DNA from: Sorangiineae bacterium NIC37A_2
Lineage (GTDB): Bacteria; Myxococcota_A; Polyangia; Polyangiales; Polyangiaceae
Assembly: GCA_002085155.1 (NCBI GenBank)
Contig: NASX01000019.1
Span: forward strand, 1-64,000
Direction: 5' to 3'
Length of the DNA stretch: 64,000 bases
This document shows, one piece after another, positions 1 through 20,656 of this stretch (positions are counted from its first letter, which is position 1; every line of letters begins with the position of its first letter). The notes beneath the pieces are model-generated. The model searched no databases. It saw only the letters and a list, made by a program, of their open reading frames with translations, and was not told where the DNA came from. The translations under genes were made by a program, and so were the position numbers.

Positions 1-505
1 ACTCGTTCAAAAAAGATAGCTTGGTCCGGTGTTTTTCCTGGAGCACGTTGTAGTGCTCCTGGGACAGGCCGAGCGCGGTGCTCATGTTCCGGAGACTCGC
101 GACCTCTGCGTGGGTGATGGCGCCGTCCGCCGCGGCCATTCCGAGCAGCGCATCGAGCACTTCGAAGCGTCCTTCTTCGGGAAGCTCTTCCCGGAGCGTG
201 CGCGTGAAGCGAGGGACAAACGAGGTGCTCAAGCGAAGCGCCTGTTCCTTGAGAACGTCGACGACAGCTTCGACGTGTTCGGCCGGAAAGCCGTGGATTC
301 TTCCGAGCTCGGCCCGAAGATGGTCCGCTTCAGCGGCGCTGATCTTCCGATCCGCATAAGCCACCGCGGACAAGAGCCCCGCAATCGCCGTCACAACGCG
401 CACCATGGTCGGGTCAACGTCACCCAGCGCCCGCTGCACCGCTTCCCTCAGGATCTCATCGCTCTCGAGCGGTAGAGGGCCTTTCTTCGATCGCGACCAG
501 AACAT
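1..505 (-). CDS. TerB-like domain protein (partial, C-terminus off the window)
   Basis: An open frame runs from an ATG at 505 to the window edge with no stop, giving about 168 residues. The protein is mostly helical and contains two similar acidic segments, AYADRKISAAEADHLR and AAADGAITHAEVASLR. This paired pattern is typical of TerB / DjlA N-terminal-type domains (tellurite-resistance TerB family), which are thought to bind metal or act as signalling or scaffold modules. The N-terminus has no signal peptide, so the protein is probably cytoplasmic. It lies on the same strand as the porin gene upstream of it but is separated by about 190 bases. The domain call is fairly safe; the biological role is not known. 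A C-terminal partner domain such as DnaJ could lie outside the window. Confidence 0.72.
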   Translation of the reverse strand, partial: MFWSRSKKGPLPLESDEILREAVQRALGDVDPTMVRVVTAIAGLLSAVAYADRKISAAEADHLRAELGRIHGFPAEHVEAVVDVLKEQALRLSTSFVPRFTRTLREELPEEGRFEVLDALLGMAAADGAITHAEVASLRNMSTALGLSQEHYNVLQEKHRTKLSFLNE

Positions 506-697: not shown

Positions 698-2125
698 CTA
701 GAACGTCGCGTCGAGCTGAGCGCGCACACCGTGATCGGCGAGCGAGAAGTCGAAATCTCCTGGCATACGCCCAATGTAGTCGGCTTGAAGTTTGAACTTG
801 TGACCGTTCAGGTAGTAGTTCAAGCCAAAACCGACTTCTTGGCCTCGACGTTCGATCTCTGTGACAAGCGCCGGATCGGTGCCCTCAGAGGCGTAGAGAC
901 GTGAGAGACGCCCCACGACCTCGAGAGGCGGCTCGAACGCGTAAGAGGCTTGAAGAACCCAACCCTGACCAGACCGAGTGAACTCAGTGAGCGCGCTGCC
1001 GTCGGCCGTCGTCGAGACGATCGTGTCCTCGCTCGCTTCTTTCCAAAGGTACTCCGCCTGGAAAGCGAAGCCGCGCCACTTGAAGACGACGTCGGCCGCG
1101 GCGTGGAGATAGTCCGCTACGCCTCCGACGTAGGTGGCACCGGTCGTGCTTCTTTGGCGGTTCGTATTGATGTTCGCCGCGAAGGCTCCCCCAAGCGCAA
1201 TCCCAGGTTTTGTCCGGCGATCTAGGTCGCCTTCCTTGTCATCATCGATCTTGCCGAGTGGACGAAACTCCAAGCGTCCTACCAAGAGGGCGCCCGGCTC
1301 TTTTCCTCCACTCAGGTTCGGCCCGCCTCCACCGAATACGCCTGCCCGATACGCAAAGGGCGAATCATCTCCGAGGAAGTGATCCGAAAAGGCCATCACA
1401 CCCACGTCTCGATCCAAGGTCAGCTCTGCGACCGGACGTGGACGCTCCGTCATCTGCAGGGCCCACTCGCGCACCGTCCTCAGACGGTCGAAGGGCACGA
1501 AGAATTGTCCGGCGCGAAAGTTCAAGTCGCGCATCGGCTGGTACTCAATGTACGCGTCGTAGACGGGAGACGTCGCTCCGTCGCGATAGTCTCTGTCCGC
1601 GAGCGCTAGCTGAATCAGATAGGTCAGCTCGGGCACCAAGACGTTGCCCCCGAGCCAGACCCGCAGGGTGCCAATATTGACGACCTGTTCCTCAACGCGA
1701 GCTTCGCCTGGAACCTCTCTGGAGGTGAACTGGTAGCGAAGCTGAATCCGGCTGCGGACGTTGAGCGAAAAACGGTCGCCGGACTTGAGTGTGAACCCTT
1801 CGCCGGGCGCGCCCGTGAACGTCACCTTCGCTCCGCTCTTCTCATCCGCCACCGGGGCCGGAACGTCCACCTCCTCTCCGTGAGGTGAAGGCGCAGAAGG
1901 ATCTTCGGAGGCGGGCGCTGCGCTCTCGGCAGCCTCGCTTCCTTCCGGCTCCGAAAGGGTCTCCCTCGGGGGCGCATCGGGAACCTCTGAGGTGACGGGG
2001 GCGGCAGTCACCGAGTCCACCGCGGAGAGCCCCTCCGATTCGGAGTCGAGCTCTTCAGCCGCAGGTTCTTGGGCAAACGCAGGGACACTGAGCGAAAGGG
2101 CCGCGGCCAGCAGACGGAGACGCAT
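698..2125 (-). CDS. OprO/OprP-like outer-membrane porin
   Basis: The frame is open further upstream, but the ATG at 2125 gives a clean signal peptide (MRLRLLAAALSLSVPAFA, then QEP), so I take that start; the mature protein is exported. After an acidic Pro/Glu/Ala-rich linker to about residue 105 comes a beta-barrel of the phosphate-selective porin O/P type. It has alternating amphipathic strands, the segment SLNVRSRIQLRYQF, and a C-terminal aromatic residue (DATF) as usual for outer-membrane proteins. The total is about 475 aa, normal for the family with the extra linker. It is the last gene of the minus-strand TonB/porin locus, 205 bases after the preceding lipoprotein. Substrate selectivity cannot be read from sequence; the family includes anion and polyphosphate channels. 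The acidic linker resembles that of the porin at 8960-10588, which suggests paralogues. Confidence 0.8.
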   Translation of the reverse strand: MRLRLLAAALSLSVPAFAQEPAAEELDSESEGLSAVDSVTAAPVTSEVPDAPPRETLSEPEGSEAAESAAPASEDPSAPSPHGEEVDVPAPVADEKSGAKVTFTGAPGEGFTLKSGDRFSLNVRSRIQLRYQFTSREVPGEARVEEQVVNIGTLRVWLGGNVLVPELTYLIQLALADRDYRDGATSPVYDAYIEYQPMRDLNFRAGQFFVPFDRLRTVREWALQMTERPRPVAELTLDRDVGVMAFSDHFLGDDSPFAYRAGVFGGGGPNLSGGKEPGALLVGRLEFRPLGKIDDDKEGDLDRRTKPGIALGGAFAANINTNRQRSTTGATYVGGVADYLHAAADVVFKWRGFAFQAEYLWKEASEDTIVSTTADGSALTEFTRSGQGWVLQASYAFEPPLEVVGRLSRLYASEGTDPALVTEIERRGQEVGFGLNYYLNGHKFKLQADYIGRMPGDFDFSLADHGVRAQLDATF

Positions 2126-2329
2126 GGACGGGCGCCCCTGAGCAGATTCCGTGCCATACGACGGCAAATCGGCCGCATTTCCCAGATCTTGGTCCGGGAG
2201 ACGCAGCGCCAAGGCCCTTCAGAGCCGCCACTCAGAGCGCATTTGCTCGATTTCCCGTCTTATTTTCTCGGAGAGGACATATCCGTTATCGGTGATGGGT
2301 TGGGGCGGCCCCCCTGAGGAGGCAACGGC

Positions 2330-3403
2330 TCACTCCTCGACGCGCACTCGCACCGAGCGCCAAGACGTTCCGCCGCGGTCGTCGCGAGCGACGAGCCAAA
2401 GGGTGGTTTCGAGCTCTTCGTCCGGCGCAATCCAGGTGTTCGAGACGACTTCGGGGTCTTCGGCGTTGTCCGTCGTGGCAAGTTCGAAGGTGCCCTTCGC
2501 CGCGAACCAACCGATTTCGACGGACTCTTGCTTGAGAACGGCCGCTCGAGTCACGGGATCGCCGTAGAGGTAAGCCTCCGCTCCCAAGCACCCCACGGCG
2601 TCCCGGCCGCAATCCTCGGCGCAGGTGGTGGAGTTCTCGTTGGCGGTGCAAAGTCCATCTCCGCACACCGGTTTGGTCGGGCAGGCCGGGAAGTGAACGA
2701 CAATGGTCAGCTCATCACCCGGCGCGACGACAATCGTGCCTTCGACGGGCTCTTCGTTGCCGTCGACCAAGACGGCGATCTCTTCCGGTTCGGGGTTCTC
2801 GTTCGGCCGGTACCCCTGATTGAAGCGAACGCTCTCCACCTGCGGCAGGTTCCCCGGACCGCAGAGCGCACGAATGCGTCCGGCCACCGGCTCCGGGTTT
2901 CCAACCACCACCGGCTGGTAATAACCGCCCGTCGAATCCGGATCGACAGCGCGGCCGGGCACCGTCTCGCCCGGGGCAGTCGGCGGGGAGAGCGGGCCGA
3001 ACTGCCTGCATACGTCCGAGGCGAGAGATGCGCTGACAGTCGGTCCTTCACCGAGCACCTTGAGGGCCTCAGATTCGGAGCCGAACTCCGTCACGCATTC
3101 GGGCGCGACCGGACCGACCTCGGTCAACGGCTTGCGCGCCACACAAAGCGCCCACTCGAGGGACTCGCCCCCTTCTTCCTCTCCGTCTTCGTTCACAAAC
3201 AGCGCACGAAGGGTCACAGATCCGCCGGGGCGAACCTCCGCAGGCTCCGCCCGCACCGCCAGGATACGCGGCTCCTTGACCCGGCTCGTCTCATCGCTGA
3301 ACTCAGGGACACATGCCCAAGCGCTCCCGAGAAGCAGCAGTGGCACGACTCGCTCTGCTCGGACGCGGCGGAAGGTTACTGAATTGATGATGGAAAATCC
3401 CAT
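2330..3403 (-). CDS. Lipoprotein with EF-like Cys cluster, TonB locus
   Basis: This encodes a 357-residue exported protein with a basic N-terminus, a hydrophobic stretch and a lipobox ending in SAWAC near residue 31, so it should be lipid-anchored. The body has beta-sandwich-like repeats with many acidic residues and a Cys-rich motif CGDGLCTANENSTTCAEDC around residues 246-264, of a kind common in myxobacterial surface proteins. The C-terminal part (ETTLWLVARDDRGG) looks like an Ig-like fold. No enzyme motif is visible. Its start lies two bases after the stop of the TonB-dependent receptor gene, so the two are almost certainly co-translated. A surface-exposed accessory to that receptor, in the way SusD-like lipoproteins partner receptors, is a reasonable inference, but the protein is not SusD-like in sequence. 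Confidence 0.7.
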   Translation of the reverse strand: MGFSIINSVTFRRVRAERVVPLLLLGSAWACVPEFSDETSRVKEPRILAVRAEPAEVRPGGSVTLRALFVNEDGEEEGGESLEWALCVARKPLTEVGPVAPECVTEFGSESEALKVLGEGPTVSASLASDVCRQFGPLSPPTAPGETVPGRAVDPDSTGGYYQPVVVGNPEPVAGRIRALCGPGNLPQVESVRFNQGYRPNENPEPEEIAVLVDGNEEPVEGTIVVAPGDELTIVVHFPACPTKPVCGDGLCTANENSTTCAEDCGRDAVGCLGAEAYLYGDPVTRAAVLKQESVEIGWFAAKGTFELATTDNAEDPEVVSNTWIAPDEELETTLWLVARDDRGGTSWRSVRVRVEE

Positions 3404-3405
3404 GG

Positions 3406-6042
3406 TCAGTACTCGAAGCGAGCTCCCAAGACGGGCAGGATCGGCAGACCGCTCACGTAGCGCTGCTCGGAGTAGTCTGGAGAGTAAGCGATTTCTTCGG
3501 GGTTCTGTTGATTCGTGGCGTTTTGTACGTCGAGGTAAATCTGGAGCTTCGAGGTCGGGAACTCGAAGGTCTTCGCGACGCGAGCGTCCAGCTGGAAGAA
3601 CATCGGGATTCGTGTCGAGTTGTGAGCTCCGAGGATCGGCTCGTAGCGACCCGCCTGGGCATCATAGAAGCTGCCCGTGATGGACACGCGGGGATAACCC
3701 GTGGCCAGGCGAACTCGGATACCAGCTTCGAACCCTGCTCCCAGATCGAGCGCTCCGAGGGCGGTCAGGACGTGCGTCTGATCGTAGTCGAAGAGCCGGA
3801 AGTCTTCCTTGCCCGCGTCTCGGCGCTCGCTCACAAGGAACGTGTACGCGACCCAGCCGAAGTACACCGACTCCCCCTTCTCCTTGCGCAAGAGAACCTG
3901 CGCGCCCGTGGAACGCCCCTCTCCTTCCTGGACTGAGACCTCGGAGACCCGCGGGTTCAGGCTCGGATTGCGCGAACCGATGTCCCAGGAGCGCGTCATG
4001 AACCCTGTCACCTCGGCGGCGAAGGATTCGAGGAACGCGTAGCGCGCACCCAATACCGCGTGCACCGCGCGACCCACGTTGAGCTGCGGGTTGCCGAAGA
4101 CGGCGGACAGATCGGCAGGGTTCGCAGGCTGGCGATAATATCCACCCGCGGCCTGGAACGAGAGCTTGTCCGACGGCGCGTAACGCACCATGAGCCGGGG
4201 CTCAGCTCCAATGTCCTCGACGGCGACCTTCTGGTCGGGGCTTCCTTCTCGAGGCGGACGGGCGCGACCAGCGATGTTGACGTAGGGCTCAACGCGCGCG
4301 CCGGGCACGATGTGCAGTTTGTTTTCGAGGAGCGCGAAATCGAGCTCCACATAGGGAGCAGCGCTCAACGAAACGGAGGTAAAGTCGTCGAAGGCCGTCT
4401 GGCTCGGCGGGATCCGCCCGAAGATGTAGGGGTCACCTTCACGAGGTGGTGTCGTGAGCGAGCCTTTGCGCGCGACGCTCGACTGGAGGAACTCGATATC
4501 GAGACCAACGCGAGCCACGATGTTCTCCGCGGCGCGCCCTTGGTAGTCCGTACGCAGACCGAACAGGTGCGTCCCGAGGGCTTGCGATTCTTCGACCCCG
4601 CCAAAGTTCGAGCGGCGATCGACCCAGTCGTGACCGTACCAGGGCACGACCAAGAGCCGTCCTCCACCCTCGTCCTCGCGACGATAGGTCGTATCGAAGC
4701 GCATGAACTTCAGCGAGTTGTACTCTTGAGCGCGGAACTCAGGGTTATCGCTTGGGGTCGTGCGCGTCTTTTCGTCGATCGAAAAGAGCCCACCAAACTC
4801 GATGCTCTCGCGCTCCGAGATCTTGTGGCGATAGCGAGCCGAGCCATCACCGAAGCTCGGCAGGGTGAAGAAGTTTTGGAATGATTGGTCGCCGAGCAGC
4901 GAGCCGAGCTCCGCGACGTAGCTCTTGCGACCGGAGAGCGAGATCGAGCCCTTTTCGCCGACAGGAGTCGAAAGCGAAGCAGACGCGTCGATGATGTCGG
5001 CCTGGAAGCTGCCGTGGATACCGTCAAGTTTCGGCGCCTTCCTATCGACGAGGATCAGACCGCCAAGACCACGCCCGTAAGGCGCCCCATAACCGCCCGC
5101 GACGAGGTCGACGCTCGCTACCTCGTCACCGTGGATGACGGAGCGAAAACCGCCGTAATGGTAGAGAACCGGAACGCGCACTCCGCCCACGTACGTGCGC
5201 GTATCATTGGGCGCCGCGCCCCAGACGATGATGTTTCCGGAGCCTGCCGCCGCGCGCCCGACACCAGGCATGCTCTCGACAACCTTGAGCACGTCGCCTT
5301 GCGTGCCCGGAACCTGACGGGCTTCCTCCGCCTTGACGGCCACTTGAACCGCTTGCCGCTCGAGCTCGGGGGGAGCGATGATCGAGATCTCGTAGTCGTC
5401 TTCTGGATCTCCCGCCTCTTCCGGCACCGGCTTTGAAATGTCGTAGCTGGCCTCGATGGCTTGGCCGGCGACGATCTCTTCCGTTACACCGAGCGCGATC
5501 AAACCCGGCGGCTCAATCGTCACGTCATAAGAGCCCGCGGGAACGTCGACGAACTCGAAGCGCCCCGATTCGTCCGTGAGGACCGTACCGATCCCCGGCA
5601 CCGTCACCCGCGCGCCGCTGATCGCTTCGCCCGTTTCCTTGTCGCGCACCACACCACGAAATTCGCCTGTCGTGGGCGGCGGCGATTCAGGGGGAGCAAA
5701 CTGGTAGCGGTAGTTGATCTTCACCGCCGTCGGCACGCCGTCGATGACGGCCGGACGGAACTCGAACTGGCGCGCAGCCGCGAGCGCTGCCTCGTCAAAA
5801 GCAGCCCCGCCCGACTCAAGGACAACCACGTCCGAGACCTTGCCCTCGGCGGTGATCGCAATCGTCAGAACAACCGTTGCGCTCTTGCCTTCCTCCTTCT
5901 CCGACTCGGGATAAGGAGCCTCGACGAACGCGAGGAGCTCAGGAGGCTGGATGTCGCGAGGCTTCGCAGCCGGGTTCTGGGCGCGGGCGGGGAGCGCGAG
6001 AACCAAGAGAGCTAAGACGAATAAGGAACGGAGCCATTGCAT
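3406..6042 (-). CDS. TonB-dependent receptor with N-terminal TonB-C and carboxypeptidase-regulatory-like domains
   Basis: The protein has 878 residues. A signal peptide (to about residue 21, ALPARAQ) is followed by a TonB C-terminal-type domain at about 35-112, recognisable by VVLESGGAAFDEAALAAARQ and FEFRPAVIDGVP. Next is a carboxypeptidase-D regulatory-like beta-sandwich at about 125-200 (GVVRDKETGEAISGARVTVP), then a plug domain at about 225-350 (GNIIVWGAAPNDTRTYVGG, GGYGAPYGRGLGG). The 22-strand barrel ends in the aromatic tail GARFEY. It should transport a ligand across the outer membrane using energy passed through the TonB-ExbB-ExbD genes directly upstream. Having a TonB-C domain on the receptor itself is unusual: normally this domain sits on the inner-membrane transducer. 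The ligand is not predictable from sequence. Confidence 0.9.
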   Translation of the reverse strand: MQWLRSLFVLALLVLALPARAQNPAAKPRDIQPPELLAFVEAPYPESEKEEGKSATVVLTIAITAEGKVSDVVVLESGGAAFDEAALAAARQFEFRPAVIDGVPTAVKINYRYQFAPPESPPPTTGEFRGVVRDKETGEAISGARVTVPGIGTVLTDESGRFEFVDVPAGSYDVTIEPPGLIALGVTEEIVAGQAIEASYDISKPVPEEAGDPEDDYEISIIAPPELERQAVQVAVKAEEARQVPGTQGDVLKVVESMPGVGRAAAGSGNIIVWGAAPNDTRTYVGGVRVPVLYHYGGFRSVIHGDEVASVDLVAGGYGAPYGRGLGGLILVDRKAPKLDGIHGSFQADIIDASASLSTPVGEKGSISLSGRKSYVAELGSLLGDQSFQNFFTLPSFGDGSARYRHKISERESIEFGGLFSIDEKTRTTPSDNPEFRAQEYNSLKFMRFDTTYRREDEGGGRLLVVPWYGHDWVDRRSNFGGVEESQALGTHLFGLRTDYQGRAAENIVARVGLDIEFLQSSVARKGSLTTPPREGDPYIFGRIPPSQTAFDDFTSVSLSAAPYVELDFALLENKLHIVPGARVEPYVNIAGRARPPREGSPDQKVAVEDIGAEPRLMVRYAPSDKLSFQAAGGYYRQPANPADLSAVFGNPQLNVGRAVHAVLGARYAFLESFAAEVTGFMTRSWDIGSRNPSLNPRVSEVSVQEGEGRSTGAQVLLRKEKGESVYFGWVAYTFLVSERRDAGKEDFRLFDYDQTHVLTALGALDLGAGFEAGIRVRLATGYPRVSITGSFYDAQAGRYEPILGAHNSTRIPMFFQLDARVAKTFEFPTSKLQIYLDVQNATNQQNPEEIAYSPDYSEQRYVSGLPILPVLGARFEY

Positions 6043-6069
6043 GGTATTGGTTTCGCGGACTCGGAAACA

Positions 6070-6759
6070 TCAGCCCGCAGAGAAGCGCATCGCGATCGTA
6101 AACGTGGATTGAACCGGCTTTCCGCAGCGCACAGCCGCCTCGAACTGCGCCGCGCGAGCGGCTTCGAGCGCAGCTTCGTCGAGGCCATAGCCGAGCGGCG
6201 CGAGGACAGAAGCATTGACGACCCGTCCTTGTGCGTCGACGGTGATGCTGACGCGGACCTTGCCTTCAATGTTGTTCTGACGAGCGAGGCTCGTATAAGC
6301 CGGTTTCGGTAAGGAAATCAGTTTGGGTTTGGCGGGGCCTTCCTGGCAGGGATCGGGCGCCTGCTTCGGGGGCGTCTGAAGGACACGCTTCGTCACCTCA
6401 CTTGTGGGACGAGCATTCGAAGGCGCGGAGGCGCGCACCGCGAAACCGGAGGAGCCGCCCGAAACTCCACCGAGCTCGAAGCCGAGATCCGGGAGAGCGT
6501 CGATCGGAGCCTGATTGGCCGGAGCGGGATTCGGATCAGCCGCCGGCGCGGCCACTTTGGCTCGCTGAGGAGCCGCCCGCGGCACCTCAGGCTCCTGAGC
6601 GACCGGTGGCGGAGGAGGCGGCGGCTCTTCCGGCTTGGCTTCGCTCTCGACGACGGAGATCGCCGTGGCTTCGATGTGGCGACGCGCCTCAATCGAACCG
6701 AGGCCGACGAGCAGCCCTCCGTGAACGGCGGCGCTACCGATGATCAATGCCCACTTCAA
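6070..6759 (-). CDS. tonB: TonB energy transducer
   Basis: I place the start at a TTG (6759) because the SD AAAGAGGTGA, which contains the exbD stop codon, sits just upstream; an ATG at 6795 would overlap exbD by 32 bases. The protein has about 229 residues. A single membrane segment (WALIIGSAAVHGGLLVGLG) leads into a Pro-rich periplasmic linker (PEEPPPPPPPVAQEPEVP). The C-terminal TonB domain has KPAYTSLARQNNIEGKVRVS and YGLDEAALEAARAAQFEAA. It transfers proton-motive-force energy from ExbB/ExbD to the outer-membrane receptor encoded next. There is an odd Cys in the last domain (AVRCGKPV). The order exbB-exbD-tonB-receptor with near-zero spacing shows one operon. Family assignment is secure. 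Confidence 0.9.
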   Translation of the reverse strand: MKWALIIGSAAVHGGLLVGLGSIEARRHIEATAISVVESEAKPEEPPPPPPPVAQEPEVPRAAPQRAKVAAPAADPNPAPANQAPIDALPDLGFELGGVSGGSSGFAVRASAPSNARPTSEVTKRVLQTPPKQAPDPCQEGPAKPKLISLPKPAYTSLARQNNIEGKVRVSITVDAQGRVVNASVLAPLGYGLDEAALEAARAAQFEAAVRCGKPVQSTFTIAMRFSAG

Positions 6760-6763
6760 GGCG

Positions 6764-7180
6764 TCACCTCTTTGAACGGTCCACGTTGATCGCAAACTTG
6801 GTGATCTTGGCGATTTTCGCCGTGTCGAGGACTTCGACGACTCGACCGTGCATTGCGGCGGCGTCCGCCGTAATCACAAGGTTCACGTCCTCTTTCTCCC
6901 GGATCGCCTTGAGCTTCGGACCGAGAGCCTCGATCGTCGTGGCTTCTTCGTTGAAGAGGAGCGAGCCGTTCTGCTCGATGGTCACGACGTACGTACGCGA
7001 GACAGTTTCGTCCGAGCTCGCCGTCTTCGGCAGTTCGACCTTGAGCGCCTGGGAGACGATATAGGTCGACGAGACCATCATGATGATGAGCAAGACGAGC
7101 GTAATGTCGACGAAGGGGGTGACGTTGATGCCAACGATACCGCCGCGTTTTCCGCGCGCCCCGCCAAGCGTACCGGCCAT
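6764..7180 (-). CDS. exbD: ExbD/TolR biopolymer transport protein
   Basis: This is a 138-residue protein with a short cytoplasmic N-terminus (GGARGKRGGIVGINVTPFVD), one transmembrane helix and a periplasmic domain. The conserved membrane Asp needed for proton use lies in TPFVDITLVLLIIMMV. The periplasmic part (EQNGSLLFNEEATTIEAL and VNLVITADAAAMHGRVVEVL) matches the ExbD/TolR fold. The gene begins one base after the stop of exbB and its stop codon sits inside the SD of tonB, so the three are translationally coupled. It is probably ExbD rather than TolR because of the TonB and receptor neighbours. Confidence 0.93.
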   Translation of the reverse strand: MAGTLGGARGKRGGIVGINVTPFVDITLVLLIIMMVSSTYIVSQALKVELPKTASSDETVSRTYVVTIEQNGSLLFNEEATTIEALGPKLKAIREKEDVNLVITADAAAMHGRVVEVLDTAKIAKITKFAINVDRSKR

Positions 7181-7181
7181 G

Positions 7182-7952
7182 TTAGCCTACCTCTCCGAGC
7201 GCCGTCGCCTCGGCGACGGACGAGAGCTCCGTCTCGCGCTCACGGCTCGTCTCTTTGCTGACGGGACCCTCGAGCTGTGCGGACTCGGACTCGTTCTGAA
7301 GAGCGTTGCCGGCGAGAATGACCTCGGGGTCGCCCTTGGCGTAAGCGGAAACCAGGCGGACCAAAGAGGTCGCATCGCTCTCAATGTCGCCGATCTTCTT
7401 CTGGATCATGTTGTAAGCGACGACCGCAGGCAGCGCCACGAACAGACCGACACCAGTTGCGACGAGCGCTTCGGCGATACCGGCCATCACGCCGCCCATC
7501 TGGTTCGGATTGCCGCCAGCGTCACCGAGAGCGTGGAACGCGATGATCACGCCAAGCACCGTACCGAACAGACCGACGAAGGGTGCGTTGTTGCCGAGAG
7601 TACCGAGGAGGTTGCTGCCGCGCTCGAGCTCAGAGCGAATCCGGCTCACCTCAGACTCAACTGCGTCGAGCAGAGCTTCCGGTCCGCGACCAATCCAACG
7701 CACCGCCACGAGCACAACTCGCGCTTCGAGCGAACGATCTTTCTCGAGGACCTTCTCAAGCTCCGCGACGCGGCGCTCGGGCAGGAGGCGCGAGATGTGG
7801 CCTCGAATGGCCTCGGAGTCGCCGCGACGACGCGCGAAGAAAACGAGACGCTCGAGCATGGTCGCGATCGACACGACTGAGAGGAAGAGGAGCAGATAGA
7901 GCACCCACTCGCTGCCGAGCAGGGCCAATTTCATGAGGCGTTCGATGATCAT
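7182..7952 (-). CDS. exbB: ExbB/TolQ/MotA-family proton channel
   Basis: The protein is 256 residues long with an N-terminal membrane helix (SEWVLYLLLFLSVVSIATM), a large cytoplasmic loop, and two further helices. The second is within NNAPFVGLFGTVLGVIIAFH, which carries the family's G-x-x-GTVxG signature. The third is in IAEALVATGVGLFVALPAVV. The C-terminal tail of about 45 residues is acidic and Ser/Glu-rich. It forms the proton-conducting complex with ExbD in the inner membrane and powers TonB. It starts 36 bases after the YfaP-like lipoprotein gene (spacing between stop and start) and is followed one base later by exbD. Assignment to the MotA/TolQ/ExbB family is certain; ExbB is preferred over TolQ from context. 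Confidence 0.93.
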   Translation of the reverse strand: MIIERLMKLALLGSEWVLYLLLFLSVVSIATMLERLVFFARRRGDSEAIRGHISRLLPERRVAELEKVLEKDRSLEARVVLVAVRWIGRGPEALLDAVESEVSRIRSELERGSNLLGTLGNNAPFVGLFGTVLGVIIAFHALGDAGGNPNQMGGVMAGIAEALVATGVGLFVALPAVVAYNMIQKKIGDIESDATSLVRLVSAYAKGDPEVILAGNALQNESESAQLEGPVSKETSRERETELSSVAEATALGEVG

Positions 7953-7988
7953 GGTATGTCTCCCGTAATGCCACGCCCGGGCGGCGTG

Positions 7989-8963
7989 TTATTGGACTTT
8001 GACTTGCGCGATGAAGGTCCCGAGCTCGCTCCCGCGCTGGAATTGTTCGGTGGTGAGGACGCCGCCGCCGAGATCGCGCGTGCGGACTCCGTAGGTGTCG
8101 CCGCTCTGGGTGCGAGAGGCGTAGGAGGCGCTGTAGCTGACCGACGTGGCGCCGCAGCTTCGATAGAGGCTCGCGTAGATCGAGTACTTCCCCTTGGGCG
8201 GAAGCCGTTCGAAGACGACGTCTTCCCGCTGCCTACTATCCTGACGGCAATCGGTGTTCGCATCGCTCACTAGGCGCGCGATCGGCGGCGCAGCCGCGTC
8301 GTCCGGGTTCAGGACACCCGGACGCCCAGCGGTCACGATCTCGCCTGTCGGGAACACCACCGTGATGTCGAGATCGGCCGGCGAATCCCACTCGAGGGAG
8401 AGCACCAGGGCAGGCGGCGCGACCTGGGGATTGCAAGCGTTGCCGTTGTCCGGGCGAAGCGACGTCACACAAATCGTCGACTCGGAGACGGGACCTGCGA
8501 GGCCGTCCTTGTCGAATCCGACGAGCTGCAGCGTGTGCCGACCCGCCGGCAGAGAGCCTTGAAGGTCCGCATTAAAGCTATAGGCGAGGGAGTTCGGGCT
8601 CTGGGCGTCACGGGCGCCGCTCGGCAAGAGCCAATAGCCGGACCCATAGCCGTCGATGCGCACGCCGACGGCCGTTGCGTCATCGGACACAATGCCACTG
8701 AAGTTCGCCCCGCGCAGGCGCTCCCGGAGCACCGTGCTCACGACCGGGGTCGTGATACGCGGCGTGTCCTTGCCTGATTCCGGCCACTCTCCTTCGAAGA
8801 ACTGGCCGCGCTCAACGCTCAGAGGCTCATCCGCACCAATTGTGCTCGGCACGCCGCACGCCATAACAAGGCCGATCGCACTCGCCACCAATCCGCCCAC
8901 GGACGCTCGGCGAACCGCGCGAAGCGCACCTCTTCCAAGAGTTTCAGTCGACAGCACGCTCAT
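7989..8963 (-). CDS. Lipoprotein with YfaP/DUF2135-like domain
   Basis: This encodes a 324-residue exported lipoprotein. A hydrophobic segment ends in the lipobox LVMAC near residue 36. The segment LVLSLEWDSPADLDITVVFP in the middle is the hallmark of the DUF2135/YfaP-like domain, a beta-sandwich usually found on exported proteins of unknown function; around it are HTLQLVGFDKDGLAGPVSE and conserved Cys residues. There are no catalytic motifs. Its ATG overlaps the stop of the upstream porin gene by 4 bases (ATGA), so the two are coupled. It lies between the porin and exbB, so it probably belongs to the same transport assembly, perhaps as a porin-associated lipoprotein; that role is inferred only from position. 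Confidence 0.72.
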   Translation of the reverse strand: MSVLSTETLGRGALRAVRRASVGGLVASAIGLVMACGVPSTIGADEPLSVERGQFFEGEWPESGKDTPRITTPVVSTVLRERLRGANFSGIVSDDATAVGVRIDGYGSGYWLLPSGARDAQSPNSLAYSFNADLQGSLPAGRHTLQLVGFDKDGLAGPVSESTICVTSLRPDNGNACNPQVAPPALVLSLEWDSPADLDITVVFPTGEIVTAGRPGVLNPDDAAAPPIARLVSDANTDCRQDSRQREDVVFERLPPKGKYSIYASLYRSCGATSVSYSASYASRTQSGDTYGVRTRDLGGGVLTTEQFQRGSELGTFIAQVKVQ

Positions 8964-10588
8964 AGGTCCACCTGCAGTCGAACGGTGAAGCGGTCGTTCC
9001 GTGCGTCCGTCGGGACACCGGTCGAGTCGCGTCCGAGGTGATCAAAGAGCCAATCGTACTGAGCCGAGAGGCGAACGCTCTCGAGCATGACGGCGAGCGA
9101 CGGAGAGAGCTCGAAGAAGCTCTGCTCCTGGAGATGGAACGTACCGGCACGCTGCTCGATCAGATTCGTGTTCGGGTCGTAGTAAGCGCCGCGCACACCG
9201 ACTAAGACGTAGTCGCCGATCTGGCTGGTCAGATAAAGAGAGCCCCCGAGAGCGACCGCATCACCGCCCAGAGCCACCGGGTCGCTCGGAAGAACGCCGC
9301 GATCCATGTTCGATGCGATGTAGGCTTCAGCGCCCGTCCGAAGCAGACCGATCGGAGTCGGGAAACGCGCGCTCACGTCGAGCGCCACCGCCCAGCGGTC
9401 GAAGTTCCGCGAAGGGAGCGCGGCCGACGCCGTCACGCCCTGGATTTCGGCGGCCTCGACGAGACCGTTGTTGTTGATATCGACCCACTGCAAGGAGTCC
9501 TTGCTCCCGGGTACGCCGCGACTCAAGCCCTGGCCCACGTAGAACGAGGCACCACCACTGATCAGGGACCGCTCCGACGGGACAGCCCTGAAGCCGAACC
9601 GGCCGGAGATGTCCTTATGAGCGTTCGGATCGGTGGGGAAACCGGTAGCTTCCGTCGGCTCTCCGTTCACGACCGCAATCGAATAGTCGATGAACTCGTA
9701 GGCGCCCCAGAGCTTCGCGCCGATATCCGCGGGTGTCGGGAACAGCGCGCGGCTCGCGATGCTCTGTTCCATGAACAGGCGATCGCGCTGTGACTCTCCG
9801 AGCTCCAAAGCAAACGGAATATCCGTGACGCCTGCGGTCAGGACGAGCCACGGGGTCACGTCGACCGGCGCCTGGCCTCGGTAGAAGAGCGATGCTTCTG
9901 CGCGACGGAGGCGCAGATTGGCGCCGCCGATGGTTCCAGCGTCGACCTCGAGGGTGGCAAAGCCGTAGCTCCAGCCGTGGTCGAGTCGGATGCGCGCGCG
10001 ACGGACCGAGAACTCATCTTGGTTCAACGGTGCGCCGTCGGGATCGAGCTGATCCTCGGAGAGCTGGCTCGTCTGGTATTGGGCCTGAACGAAACCAGAA
10101 ACCGCGAAGCCCGGCTTGAGCACCCGCCGATAGTTCGATCCTTCCTTGTCGACAACAGCGCCCTTGAGCGCAGGGGCACCTTGAGGTTCTTCGACCTCCG
10201 ACTCCGGCTCAGGAGCTTCCGCTTCTGCGTCCACAGAGGCGGTCGCTTCGGCCGAAACATCTGCCAAGGAAGCGTCCGCCGACGCGTCAGCGGTCGCTGG
10301 AGCCGTCTCAGGCTCAGGCGACGCGGGAGCTCCCGTCGCCTGTGACGGAACATCAACCTCGTAATCCTCGTCTTCAGCCTCGGCCGGGGCCTCGCCCGTT
10401 TCAGGCGAAGGCTGCGCCGCCGATCCGCCGGGAGCCGCACCAGGGGCTCCCGGAGCTGCTGGGGCATCGGGAGCCGGCTGAGCCAAAACCGGCGAGGCAA
10501 GGAGCGAGGTCGTCAGGACGACGGGAAAGAAAGCTAGAGAGCTCGGAAGGTGCGCGCTGCGCACTCGGAATAGAGATCGCATGGACAA
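8960..10588 (-). CDS. OprO/OprP-like outer-membrane porin with long acidic linker
   Basis: This is a 542-residue protein with a signal peptide ending around SPVLAQP. A linker of about 120 residues rich in Ala, Pro and Glu follows (EAPAEAEDEDYEVDVPSQ and SADASLADVSAEATASVDAE). The barrel starts near GFAVSGFVQAQYQTSQ and shows the porin O/P signature in DEFSVRRARIRLDHGW and LRLRRAEASLFYRG; the C-terminus ends in VRLQVDL. It should form a trimeric outer-membrane channel. The linker may reach through the periplasm or bind peptidoglycan or a partner. The porin at 698-2125 has the same architecture. It overlaps the next gene by 4 bases. The nature of the permeant solute is unknown; anion preference is known for some family members only. 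Confidence 0.85.
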   Translation of the reverse strand: MSMRSLFRVRSAHLPSSLAFFPVVLTTSLLASPVLAQPAPDAPAAPGAPGAAPGGSAAQPSPETGEAPAEAEDEDYEVDVPSQATGAPASPEPETAPATADASADASLADVSAEATASVDAEAEAPEPESEVEEPQGAPALKGAVVDKEGSNYRRVLKPGFAVSGFVQAQYQTSQLSEDQLDPDGAPLNQDEFSVRRARIRLDHGWSYGFATLEVDAGTIGGANLRLRRAEASLFYRGQAPVDVTPWLVLTAGVTDIPFALELGESQRDRLFMEQSIASRALFPTPADIGAKLWGAYEFIDYSIAVVNGEPTEATGFPTDPNAHKDISGRFGFRAVPSERSLISGGASFYVGQGLSRGVPGSKDSLQWVDINNNGLVEAAEIQGVTASAALPSRNFDRWAVALDVSARFPTPIGLLRTGAEAYIASNMDRGVLPSDPVALGGDAVALGGSLYLTSQIGDYVLVGVRGAYYDPNTNLIEQRAGTFHLQEQSFFELSPSLAVMLESVRLSAQYDWLFDHLGRDSTGVPTDARNDRFTVRLQVDL

Positions 10589-10716
10589 GGGGTATCGCTT
10601 GGTGGAAGAACGCTTCCAAAAGCCTCACAGGCCGCCAATTCAGCAAGTGACGTGCCAGTCCCTGCTCTGGGATGGAGGCGAGAATTCCTAGGGATCGGGG
10701 CACAAAACGAGAGAGG

Positions 10717-10777
10717 CGCCCCGTGATATTTCCGTGCCCAGCAAGGAAGCCGGGGACTGCGCAAATATCGCGGGACG
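10717..10777. repeat. Imperfect inverted repeat between two genes of the TonB locus
   Basis: The arms 10717-10731 (CGCCCCGTGATATTT) and 10763-10777 pair at 13 of 15 positions across a 31-base loop. They lie in the 210-base gap between the lipoprotein stop at 10798 and the porin start at 10588. On the minus strand the structure is followed by a short T-rich stretch (CGTTTTGTG), so it may be an attenuator or intercistronic hairpin that lowers expression of the downstream genes. This is suggestive only. Confidence 0.4.
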
Positions 10778-10797
10778 CCTTCGCTCTTTTTTCCGTA

Positions 10798-11256
10798 TCA
10801 GGGCAAAGGTGGCAGCGTCCCGCCGCTGTAACCTTCGATCTTCGAGTTATCGAACCCGCCGAAAAGGCATTCGCCTTGGCATTGCTCGAGGAACTGGATC
10901 GTTTTCACACCGTTACATTCGCTGAGGTCCCAGCATTCGTCACCGTTCGGTTCGTCGGGGCAATCCTCCTTTTCGGGAGGAGCGACGATCCCGGTGCCCC
11001 CGGAGCCGTCGTCGTTGCCTTCACCACCGAGATTGCGAGATCCGCCTGATCCTCTCCGTCCGCCAGTGTTGCCGGAGCCTCCGGTCGCCTTGCGTCCGCC
11101 GGAACCGTCGTCGTTGGCTTCGCCGCCGGGATTCACGACGTCGTCGTCATCCGCTGATGCATTTTCGCCCTTACAAGCTTGGAACGAAGCGCTGAGCGCA
11201 AACAGGACGATCAGAGGACGGACGAAGCGTCGAAGCGAGCTACTTTGAGTGGTCAT
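10798..11256 (-). CDS. Small Gly-rich, Cys-rich lipoprotein
   Basis: The ATG at 11256 gives a classical lipoprotein signal (RRFVRPLIVLFALSASFQAC); an in-frame ATG at 11283 would add nine residues. The mature part has an acidic DDDD patch and a Gly-rich linker in which GGEANDDGSGG and GGEGNDDGSGG repeat. A C-terminal domain of about 45 residues has four Cys (CPDEPNGDECWDLSEC, then CQGEC). About 152 residues in all. I do not recognise a family. It lies directly downstream of the periplasmic-binding-protein-like gene (gap about 30 bases) and upstream of a porin, so it is likely part of the same envelope system. The Gly-rich spacer suggests the Cys-rich head is displayed away from the membrane. 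Confidence 0.62.
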   Translation of the reverse strand: MTTQSSSLRRFVRPLIVLFALSASFQACKGENASADDDDVVNPGGEANDDGSGGRKATGGSGNTGGRRGSGGSRNLGGEGNDDGSGGTGIVAPPEKEDCPDEPNGDECWDLSECNGVKTIQFLEQCQGECLFGGFDNSKIEGYSGGTLPPLP

Positions 11257-11286
11257 TGTCTTGTCTCGAAGAAAGAGGGTCATGAG

Positions 11287-12516
11287 TTAGTAAGCCTCGC
11301 AGAAGCCAAGTCGGCAGACTTCGCCTTCACCGTCGCATTCGTCCGAGGTTTCACAAGCCTGGTAGTCGGTCTCGCCGGCAGAGATGTACTCGTACCAACC
11401 ATTGCAAGGCCGAGCCGGTGCGTAGGATTGAATCGCCGAAAGATCGCCTTCCGGACGGATCGCTTGCATTGCGCACAGCGGCACGTCGCCCGACTCAACC
11501 ACCAACTCCTGGATGTTGAGATCACCCGGCGGGTCGATCGAGCCATCGAACCAGCCGATCAGATCGCGCACCAAGGGGTTCGAGGGACGACCGTCCTCGT
11601 CCACATTCGCGAAGAACCACGCGGGCGTCCAAAGCCAGTACTGACCCGACCTGACGTTCTTTCGATCATAGCGACCTTCCTCGGAGTCAGGGAGGTAAGC
11701 GCAGGTCTGGTCGAAGTGCTGGTAAGCGAGGGTCTTGATCTGACCGTCGTCTTCGCCCTTCTTGGCGTTCGAGCCGGAGACGTAGCCAAGAGACTGATCG
11801 GGGAGGTTCCCCGGATCTTCGCCCCAATCAAACACGCCCTTCACGACTCCTTGATTGTCCCGGAGGAAGTTCCCCTGCGGGAGCTTGAAGCCCGCCGCGG
11901 GCACGCCGATCGACTGCGCGAGGATCTGGTGCACGAAGGAGCTCGTGTTTCGCACCCAAATCGCTCCCGGCTCAGTCCAAGGAGCCACAGTGCGCCCCGC
12001 AAATCCAGGGCCGAAGCCGAAGATGTGGTAGAGGGCCTCTGCGTTGATCGTCTTCTCCTGAGAGTCCTTGTGGGTGATGACGTTGATGGTCTGAACAGGG
12101 GCCACGAACTTCGCAGCGCCGTCAGGGATCGGAACGTCGCCCGGGCAAAGAGCGGGCGTGTTGCCCATGTGAGCGAACTCCACGACACTCTGGGGGGCTT
12201 CGCAGCTCTTCTGTGTGCCGTCCGCCTCCCAATACTTGAACGTCACTTCGATCAGCGGATCGGGCTTGCGGAAATACTCGTAACCGGTGCACGCGCCGGG
12301 GTCTGCGTAAACGATCGTGACCTCCTCGTCCCCAGGAAGGCTGCGGAGAGCGATCGCGACGTTCGCGAGGGTCGGCGTCACGGCGCTTCCGCCGCCGCCG
12401 TAGACCGGATTCGGCAGATCCAAGTCAGCACAAGGCACGGCAAGCGCCAGCTTGGGCGCTAAGAGCAAAGGAGCGGCGGCCGGCAGGGCCAAGAGACTTC
12501 TGAGAATGAGTTTCAT
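11287..12516 (-). CDS. PstS-like periplasmic-binding-fold protein
   Basis: This encodes a 409-residue exported protein with a signal peptide ending in APKLALA. The N-terminal mature segment (NPVYGGGGSAVTPTLANVA and VTIVYADPGACTGYEYF) resembles the start of PstS-type phosphate-binding folds, where a Gly/Ser-rich turn binds the anion. The later segments FVAPVQTINVITHKDSQE and LYHIFGFG, then RNTSSFVHQILAQSIGVPA, fit the second lobe of that fold. A C-terminal Cys cluster (CETSDECDGEGEVC) is added. No ABC permease or ATPase is nearby, so this is not an ordinary Pst operon; the protein may work with the porins and TonB receptor. It is the first gene of the ten-gene minus-strand locus. Phosphate binding is a hypothesis from fold similarity seen by eye. 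Confidence 0.62.
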   Translation of the reverse strand: MKLILRSLLALPAAAPLLLAPKLALAVPCADLDLPNPVYGGGGSAVTPTLANVAIALRSLPGDEEVTIVYADPGACTGYEYFRKPDPLIEVTFKYWEADGTQKSCEAPQSVVEFAHMGNTPALCPGDVPIPDGAAKFVAPVQTINVITHKDSQEKTINAEALYHIFGFGPGFAGRTVAPWTEPGAIWVRNTSSFVHQILAQSIGVPAAGFKLPQGNFLRDNQGVVKGVFDWGEDPGNLPDQSLGYVSGSNAKKGEDDGQIKTLAYQHFDQTCAYLPDSEEGRYDRKNVRSGQYWLWTPAWFFANVDEDGRPSNPLVRDLIGWFDGSIDPPGDLNIQELVVESGDVPLCAMQAIRPEGDLSAIQSYAPARPCNGWYEYISAGETDYQACETSDECDGEGEVCRLGFCEAY

Positions 12517-12584: not shown

Positions 12585-12784
12585 AAGCAACTCGGATGCC
12601 AAAGCTCGGATCCCCGGTCAGGGTCGCCGTGATCCGCGAGAAACGGCCTCGAGGAACGGTTTCAGTAGACCTGCTCAGAGCGCCACACATCACGCCGCTC
12701 CGGAATTCCAGGCTATTTCACGGACCGCAGTTGGATATCGCGGGAGTTGCCCGGAGGGAGCGCTCCTCGTGCGCGCTCCTGCTC

Positions 12785-19028: not shown

Positions 19029-20636
19029 TCAACCGTTCGCTTTGAGCTCTGCAAACTCGCCCGGATCCTTGATGGTCGGAGGCGCAGTCCCACCGTCCCC
19101 GAAGAGGCCGGTATCGTCGTATTTGCCAAACTTCTCGACGGGCTGCGTCCCGTTTTCTGCCGGCCAACCATCCGCACCTGCCTTCACGCCAATCGCGTTG
19201 AGCAAGTTGCAGAAGTACTTGTTGATCGGGGCATTCGCCACCTGCTGATCGGTACCGGTGGGGTGATCACCGTTCGTCTCCGGATTCTTTTCCGTACCGC
19301 CGCTCGAACAAGCCGCCTCGCTCTTGCCGTTCGACATGTCCGCGCTGCCGTCCCAGACGTTGATGATTTGTCCGGTCTTGAAGTATCCGCCGCAGCTTCC
19401 GGCCTGCACGATCGGCATGTTGTTCAAGTTGTGGCTGTTTCCGTCGGAGAGCTCCTGGAAGTAACAGACCGCCGAATTGTCGAGAACGGTTCCCGCTCCC
19501 TCATTGAACTTGTCGAGTTGACCAACGAGATAGGCAAACTGCTCCGCGTGCCAGGTGTCGATCTTCTTGAGCATGTCGTTGACACCAGCGAGGCAGGTGC
19601 CGCCGCCTTGGAGGGCGTCGTTTTGGCGATGCGAAAGATTGTGGTGCTCTTGTGAAATGCCGAGACCGGTGAAGGTATAACCGGGCGGGAACTTGAACAC
19701 GAACACCCGGTTCGCATCGCAGATCGCCGCGAGAACACCGAGGTTCATCATGACCTCGGTGATACCCGCCGTGATGTCTTGCGTCGCCGTGTTCGTTTTG
19801 ATCCCGAGGGAATCAGCGGTGGCCTGATTGCACTCTGCTCGCACGACGTTCGTCATATCGACGAGCAAGTCCTTCCAGTCGCTCAGCTTCTTCTTGTCCG
19901 CTGCGCTCATGACCTGAGCCTCAAGGGACATGAGATCGTGCCGGACGAGGTCCAGAACCTGTTTGCCACGCGCGGTTCGGTAGGTGTCCGGGTTCATGGG
20001 CCCGCCGTCTTGGAAGAGCATCGTGAGCTGGTTGAACACCTGAAGCGGCGCACCCACGCCGGGGAAAGCCTCCTGCGGGGCGGAGTAAGAAATCGCCGAT
20101 TGCGGTGAGTCGGTCCGGTTCCCGATACGCATCACGAGGGGGGTCTTGGTCGGGCTGACTTGTTCGGCCGCGATGTGGTCGAGGGTTCGCCCCGTGGGCT
20201 TCGCGTTGAACTTCGCTTCGTTGCTCGGCAGGAACTGACCGGGCTCGACGACGCCGTTCGGAGTCACCGGGTGACAACTGAAGTAAGAGCCCACGACCTG
20301 CGTGTGCGGATCATTGATCTGACCGTAGGTCGGCCTCGGTCCCCATTGGTTCATGGCGCGAATGCCGCGCGGCAGAAGGATCTTGGACGCGTAGGGCGCA
20401 AGAGACTTCAGCGAGGTCGGCTGCAGGAGCTCCGGCGTCAAAGCGCCATGCGAAGGAGCAGGGAACCAGGAGTTCGTAATGCACCCGTAGTGGGTGAACA
20501 TGATGAACAGGCGCCGCGGATCCTCCGCGGGCGTTCCTTGGGCGCGGGCAGCACGCTCAGCGACAGAGCTCAAGAACGGCGCAGCCACGACTGCGCCACC
20601 AAGGCCACGGAGAAAGATTCGTCGATTCAGCTTCAT
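19029..20636 (-). CDS. DUF1552 Tat-exported protein
   Basis: About 535 residues from ATG 20636, which has AGGA eight bases upstream; two earlier ATG/start candidates (20642, 20654) fit less well. The N-terminus MKLNRRIFLRGLGGAVVAAP is a twin-arginine signal, so the protein is exported folded, which often means a cofactor. The body contains LFIMFTHYGCITNSWFPAP, ISQEHHNLSHRQND, NSAVCYFQELSDGNSHNLNN and the C-terminal NALGVK-like tail, as in the DUF1552 family. In planctomycetes and myxobacteria DUF1552 is nearly always encoded with DUF1592-type proteins, as here. The biochemical role is unknown. It is probably the last gene of a three-gene operon. Confidence 0.85.
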   Translation of the reverse strand: MKLNRRIFLRGLGGAVVAAPFLSSVAERAARAQGTPAEDPRRLFIMFTHYGCITNSWFPAPSHGALTPELLQPTSLKSLAPYASKILLPRGIRAMNQWGPRPTYGQINDPHTQVVGSYFSCHPVTPNGVVEPGQFLPSNEAKFNAKPTGRTLDHIAAEQVSPTKTPLVMRIGNRTDSPQSAISYSAPQEAFPGVGAPLQVFNQLTMLFQDGGPMNPDTYRTARGKQVLDLVRHDLMSLEAQVMSAADKKKLSDWKDLLVDMTNVVRAECNQATADSLGIKTNTATQDITAGITEVMMNLGVLAAICDANRVFVFKFPPGYTFTGLGISQEHHNLSHRQNDALQGGGTCLAGVNDMLKKIDTWHAEQFAYLVGQLDKFNEGAGTVLDNSAVCYFQELSDGNSHNLNNMPIVQAGSCGGYFKTGQIINVWDGSADMSNGKSEAACSSGGTEKNPETNGDHPTGTDQQVANAPINKYFCNLLNAIGVKAGADGWPAENGTQPVEKFGKYDDTGLFGDGGTAPPTIKDPGEFAELKANG

Positions 20637-20656
20637 GGTCATGTTCCTGTGCACTC

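Follow-up and report, generated by a model that had tools for sequence, protein, structure and literature searches.

Porins alone are usually credited with carrying inorganic phosphate and sulfate across the bacterial outer membrane. The phosphate/pyrophosphate porins OprP and OprO are known from Pseudomonas, the phoX-oprO pairing of Xanthomonas puts the gene for a phosphate-binding protein near that for an OprO-type porin, and SftP of Pseudomonas putida, which handles sulfate esters, is a TonB-type receptor serving sulfur acquisition. In Flavobacterium, TonB-dependent outer-membrane systems termed Pus have been tied to phosphate depletion; they comprise SusCD pairs with phosphatases, and plant-associated strains reportedly do without PstSABC (PMC8115612). 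The stretch analysed here (the window) covers the opening 64 kb of contig C111 (80,013 bases) of Sorangiineae bacterium NIC37A_2, whose genome of 5.0 Mb lies in 150 contigs. A locus starting ∼0.7 kb from the contig end holds the ten open reading frames (ORFs) that an initial annotation of this DNA had listed as one possible uptake system, all present on the minus strand and in the order claimed, from 12,516 down to 698:

11287..12516, minus strand: SBP, periplasmic binding protein with the PstS fold, pocket class B and a C-terminal Cys-rich tail (AlphaFold2 model, VIA structure comparison, pocket motifs)
10798..11283, minus strand: LipA, small lipoprotein with a Gly-rich linker, its place between SBP and PorA conserved; no Pfam family reaches its cut-off
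8960..10588, minus strand: PorA, porin with an OprP/OprO-type barrel behind a disordered N-terminal linker; start probably the ATG at 10582 (VIA fold match)
7989..8963, minus strand: LipB, lipoprotein with an invariant Cys36 at the lipobox position (alignment A3); no Pfam family
7182..7952, minus strand: ExbB (PF01618, 1e-30)
6764..7180, minus strand: ExbD (PF02472, 2.8e-24)
6070..6795, minus strand: TonB (PF03544, 8.2e-18)
3406..6042, minus strand: receptor with signal peptide, TonB_C (42-113), CarboxypepD_reg (129-182), Plug (230-328) and barrel (Pfam)
2330..3403, minus strand: LipC, lipoprotein with an invariant Cys31 at the lipobox position (alignment A4)
698..2212, minus strand: PorB, the other porin of the OprP family, start probably the ATG at 2125 (PF07396, 6.5e-9); homologues adjoin cysPTWA

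We read this locus as a module of the outer envelope that acquires sulfate, or a sulfur oxyanion closely related to it, and feeds the ATP-binding cassette (ABC) importer CysPTWA; we give this reading a probability of about 0.58. It draws on the protein folds, a conserved gene order, classes of binding pocket, class-specific neighbouring genes and promoter-like sites.

SBP resembles the binding protein of the PstSCAB-PhoU system. Its model (mean predicted local distance difference test score, pLDDT, 90.9) has the PstS fold, with 4lat as best VIA match (Z 25.1, root-mean-square deviation 2.7, 256 residues); phosphate-binding proteins occupy rows 1-38 of 50 in VIA and the first 26 rows in Foldseek, and the next folds in VIA are the molybdate-binding protein ModA (Z 15.7) and the sulfate-binding protein 1sbp (Z 14.8). 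Some relatives, our class A below, also retain the phosphate motifs of PstS. The module differs from PstSCAB-PhoU, however, in having no ABC genes (no PstCAB), in the extra Cys-rich tail of SBP and, in the window copy, in lacking the Asp and SGT of PstS; moreover, the same genome holds a separate canonical pstSCAB-phoU operon on contig C110, with motifs GAGATF, FGATD and SDGSGT read by eye. The barrels closest to PorA are those of OprP (VIA Z 28.3) and OprO (28.2 and 28.1), with other porins from 25.3 downward. Most of the PorA barrel is modelled at pLDDT > 90, and PorA differs from OprP and OprO in its long disordered N-terminal linker (residues 1-150) and in sitting in a TonB operon. The Porin_O_P profile, whose cut-off PorB passes, gives no match to PorA of the window and matches 8 of 32 PorA relatives. 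The soluble binding protein, the OprP-type porins and the oxyanion idea of the initial annotation are all supported.

Although the Xanthomonas pairing likewise brings a phosphate-binding protein together with an OprO-type porin, we know of no TonB, ExbB/ExbD, receptor or lipoprotein set there. SftP, likewise, is not known to belong to any conserved set of nine genes or to be accompanied by a PstS-fold protein or an OprP porin. Pus is, as the module would be, a TonB-dependent outer-membrane system for an inorganic nutrient, but no PstS-fold protein or OprP porin figures in its loci as described in the part of the source consulted (PMC8115612).

Conservation was followed from the binding protein: of 144 genomes from the order, 58 carry a relative of it, as do 17 among 140 drawn from the phylum at large. 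Loci came from 40 stretches around the matches in the order, 11 more across the phylum and 80 named loci that a receptor profile turned up; the last include Nannocystis exedens, Polyangium sp. 15x6 and, with two copies, Minicystis rosea DSM 24000. These gave 107 SBPs, 83 of them distinct, of which 73 had enough downstream sequence to judge gene order and 68 had all three proteins used for trees. The exact order SBP-LipA-PorA-LipB-ExbB-ExbD-TonB-receptor-LipC is found at 36 of the 73 loci, and the same order without a detected LipA at 14 or without a TonB match at one; a short form without ExbB, ExbD and TonB accounts for 18 and the short form with a TonB match for one, leaving one locus with SBP-receptor-LipC and two with SBP alone. 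Such conservation of order far exceeds chance. The initial annotation had proposed a single uptake-type unit that would fall if the order were lost in near relatives; the nine-gene order is instead kept far beyond the genus. Its tenth gene fares differently: PorB follows LipC at one of the 73 loci (one of the 36 with exact order), and we rejected it as a member of the conserved core, its own link being to cysPTWA. Literature searches found no description of the nine-gene module.

Departures from the usual layouts include a class B locus cut down to SBP-LipA-PorA, with no ExbB/ExbD, TonB, receptor or LipC (L069, G038:C16:315000-334000), and solitary SBP homologues, some with LipA, that have no porin or receptor close by (L101, L103, L104 and L148). 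At L217 (3000-22642) a class B long module and a class C short module face each other on the same contig, the class C receptor being split over several frames.

When the 83 SBPs were aligned at the phosphate positions of PstS, they fell into three coherent pocket types. Class A (n = 30) has the motifs GSSA / GSC / SD / SGT, class B (n = 31) GGSA / PGAC / MGN or MGT / S[AF]x, and class C (n = 18), which is confined to short loci or contig ends, GDTQEP / ... / KST or AST; four are 'other'. The window SBP belongs to class B, with GN and SFV at the aligned phosphate-site positions, no Asp and no SGT. By an Asp rule looser than that used for class assignment, both the Asp and the SGT of PstS are found in 30 of the 83, neither in 49, and four are mixed. 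The class A profile matches PstS chains in the Protein Data Bank (PDB; best 5.7e-6), while the class B and class C profiles have no significant match there. The classes also follow the trees of 68 loci: fitting them takes 4 changes for SBP and 5 each for PorA and the receptor, against shuffled minima of 26, 23 and 24, which, like the Fisher and binomial figures behind the comparisons of neighbours and of CysP by genome below, are not corrected for relatedness of the genomes. Mantel correlations from comparing SBP, PorA and receptor at these loci are 0.63, 0.55 and 0.82.

The genes around the modules differ by class. Clustering 609 flanking ORFs from 82 loci without any reference yielded a CysP-like cluster found only at class B loci. 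The flanking ORFs were also assigned their best matches among 53 E. coli K-12 proteins plus ABC decoys, and counted at a threshold of at least 200 bits. Class B neighbours are cysP (5), cysA (4), cysT (cysU; 4), cysW (3), cysDN-cysM (L065) and cysH (L179), and sulfate genes reach the threshold at 6 of 31 class B loci versus 0 of 51 others. Class A neighbours are ppk (4), ppx (3), phoU (2), pstC (1) and phoA (1), with 6 of 30 class A loci reaching the threshold versus 0 of 52 others, or 1 if a pstS near L197 (class 'other') is counted; none of ppk, ppx, phoU, pst or phoA was a best match in this panel near class B loci. One class A locus (L089) adjoins pstC, a PBP_like_2 (PstS-like) protein and phoU. 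A PhoB-like regulator near 12 class A loci is weak evidence, since PhoB is the sole response regulator in the panel. Class C neighbours include maltose/glycerol-phosphate-type permeases at four loci, all from closely similar genomes.

The association with cysPTWA extends beyond this count. Further cysPTWA genes lie close to class B modules at L250-L253, and in whole genomes they lie ∼5 kb from the class B module (G012 and G030) or 15-17 kb from it (G018 and G049); in G117 and G121 they stand directly behind LipC, with SBP at another contig end. The link probably has more than one origin, as the neighbours may stand upstream in divergent orientation, upstream on the same strand, or downstream. 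In the congener G090 everything forms one cluster: PorB-cysA-cysW-cysT-cysP is followed after 0.5 kb by SBP-LipA-PorA and the rest of the module on the opposite strand, and its CysP and CysT pass their NCBIfam cut-offs, TIGR00971 being the sulfate-binding protein. A third congener (G112, 89% complete) gave no match to SBP, PorB or CysP. PorB points the same way on its own: close relatives (E ∼1e-88 or less) occur in 21 other genomes, 17 of which also have CysP, and in 9 of these 17 (G107, G116, G108, G098, G049, G090, G045, G012 and G030) the two lie at most 25 kb apart, a proximity with which the 14 neighbourhoods fetched are consistent. By genome, CysP is found in 15 of 25 with a class B SBP versus 25 of 119 others, leaving aside a weak match in G005 (3e-4).

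In the genome of the window, cysPTWA lies on contig C95; we had considered this operon as a polyamine transporter and rejected that because NCBIfam identifies sulfate ABC subunits, over subfamily cut-offs. The inner-membrane step for sulfate is therefore present, although unlinked to the module, and the initial annotation's phrase 'without an ABC transporter' holds inside the window but neither for this genome nor for the congener, where cysPTWA stands directly beside the module. Two SulP-family genes and, by eye, modABC on C131 are also present.

Taken together, the pocket residues, the neighbours of two parts of the module, the promoter type (below) and the congener's cluster point to phosphate for class A and to a sulfur oxyanion for class B. 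Phosphate, the initial guess for this copy, was dropped for sulfate after the neighbour analysis and is not favoured, since its SBP class lacks the phosphate residues of PstS and stands beside sulfate-assimilation genes.

Several observations weigh against sulfate as the ligand. The SBP fold is closer to PstS (Z 25) than to the sulfate-binding protein 1sbp. Only ∼3 independent pocket switches fall on the PorA tree, and a sign test is not significant. By its title, the structure 1ixi shows E. coli PstS with Asp56Asn together with phosphate; a missing Asp is therefore not enough to exclude that ligand. No CysP match was found in 10 of the 25 class B genomes, CysP lies megabases from the module in the complete class B genome G130, and cysPTWA of the window's own genome is unlinked, as noted. 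TauD-family dioxygenase genes adjoin four class B loci (L070 3432-4505, L071 14633-15847, L073 5289-6395 and L195 1-696). Finally, TonB is, to our knowledge, rarely thought to be needed for inorganic sulfate.

A rival reading has the module take up thiosulfate or organosulfur compounds such as sulfate esters and sulfonates, with the receptor as main gate and SBP recovering the released anion. A TonB receptor would suit larger, scarce ligands, the TauD-family genes near four class B loci would fit, the cysH and cysDN neighbours are compatible with any sulfur source, and sigma-54 controls organosulfur use in pseudomonads. The usual partner of class B modules, however, is an inorganic sulfate transporter (TIGR00971 sulfate-binding protein, CysT), the best matches in the 53-protein panel include neither ssu nor tau of E. 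coli near any locus, and two TauD-like genes scanned with NCBIfam came nearest to trimethylaminoethylphosphonate/carnitine dioxygenases, not to TauD itself; we consider this account unlikely, at perhaps one chance in five. It is more improbable that the window copy is a phosphate system like class A, its pocket binding phosphate in another way. The PstS fold with an OprP-type porin, the 1ixi structure and a gene order identical to that of class A would all fit, but class B has neither the Asp nor the SGT and, by best matches in the panel, adjoins sulfate genes and no phosphate genes, and the genome already has its own pstSCAB-phoU with standard motifs. The presence of several classes in one genome (A, B and C in G129, A and B in Minicystis rosea) also argues against a single ligand. 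Another oxyanion, or a role in sensing or the envelope instead of nutrient uptake, would suit the molybdate-binding proteins as next-best SBP folds and the three lipoproteins without assigned function, but repeated, differently arranged proximity to cysPTWA makes this the least probable account.

For the sulfur-oxyanion module we infer the following ligand, transport direction, hand-over to CysPTWA, receptor cargo and regulation. PorA and PorB would let the anion enter the periplasm passively, and the receptor, driven by TonB/ExbB/ExbD, would import the same anion, or a larger sulfur-bearing form, against low supply. The class B SBP would capture the periplasmic anion and pass it to a CysPTWA importer encoded elsewhere in the genome, with the three lipoproteins as putative accessories and transcription probably dependent on sigma-54. 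The sister class A module would do the same job for phosphate. Under such a scheme, some bacteria would pay for outer-membrane uptake of phosphate or sulfate with proton-motive force, and the paralogous classes would form a natural experiment in turning a phosphate pocket into a sulfate pocket. More tentatively, with odds slightly below even, the nine-gene chassis may be an undescribed class of energised oxyanion uptake at the outer membrane, retargeted through coordinated changes in SBP, porin and receptor to phosphate, sulfate and possibly a third ligand class, with two or three versions working in parallel in some genomes. Cultured carriers such as Minicystis rosea and Nannocystis exedens make the module testable.

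The receptor has a feature that the initial annotation overlooked, a TonB_C domain of its own (residues 42-113) behind the signal peptide. Its Plug domain (PF07715) is over cut-off and the barrel region is conserved in alignment A5. Among the 51 receptors at long loci, 49 have TonB_C, and the two without it (L143 and L217) are split ORFs; at other loci 11 of 20 receptors have it. The myxochelin receptor MxcH (NF038079) shares an N-terminal TonB_C-like region, matching residues 33-126; MxcH is however a siderophore receptor, and the match covers only the N-terminal 94 model positions and is far below the family cut-off. A fused TonB domain is not confined to the module, since alignments with the majority of paralogous receptors in the order likewise start at the N-terminus. 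Many genomes of the order have receptors with a fused N-terminal TonB_C domain, frequently more than one, that align over almost their whole length.

Promoter-like sites and a repeat were located in the locus:

12586..12601, minus strand: sigma-54-like site, 10/12 core positions, upstream of SBP
10642..10657, minus strand: exact sigma-54 -24/-12 consensus upstream of PorA, leader of ∼49 nucleotides (nt)
2141..2156, minus strand: sigma-54-like site ∼15 nt before the PorB ATG
10714..10780, unstranded: inverted repeat lying between LipA and the PorA site, its 21-nt arms being 86% complementary

In the window, the PorA and PorB sites are the two matches to the sigma-54 consensus at one mismatch or fewer, versus 0.39 expected. 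Upstream of SBP the scan was anchored on the mature SBP motif, overlong ORF starts having given a weak signal; sites of at least 10/12 precede 17 of 30 class B, 2 of 29 class A and 2 of 17 class C genes (3.1% of random stretches), and sites of at least 11/12 precede 7, 0 and 0. The PorB-type site recurs at similar spacing in relatives (L268-L270 and L276); its position ∼15 nt before the ATG would leave a nearly leaderless mRNA, so it could be another regulator's palindrome. The inverted repeat is a candidate terminator or activator site.

Overlaps and short gaps had been claimed throughout, and most junctions bear this out. SBP and LipA are 3 nt apart, PorA and LipB overlap by 4, LipB and ExbB are 36 apart, ExbB and ExbD 1, TonB and receptor 27, and receptor and LipC 2; ExbD and TonB overlap by 32 at the listed TTG start. 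The LipA-PorA gap of 209 nt is not short, and neither is the one between LipC and PorB, which measures 117 nt if PorB starts at the listed TTG and 204 nt if it starts at the more likely ATG (2125). As the 209-nt gap holds a promoter-like site of its own, a single ten-gene transcript was rejected, and with the long LipC-PorB gap two or three transcripts seem likelier than one.

Pfam gave nothing at or above cut-off for PorA, SBP or the three lipoproteins, and the label 'YfaP-like' given to LipB is not borne out, no Pfam family appearing up to E = 10. Just past PorB, a TerB-domain ORF (window 2-505) is cut by the contig end. Elsewhere in the window (19029-22420), a DUF1552 protein adjoins a DUF1592/1588/1595/1585 protein.

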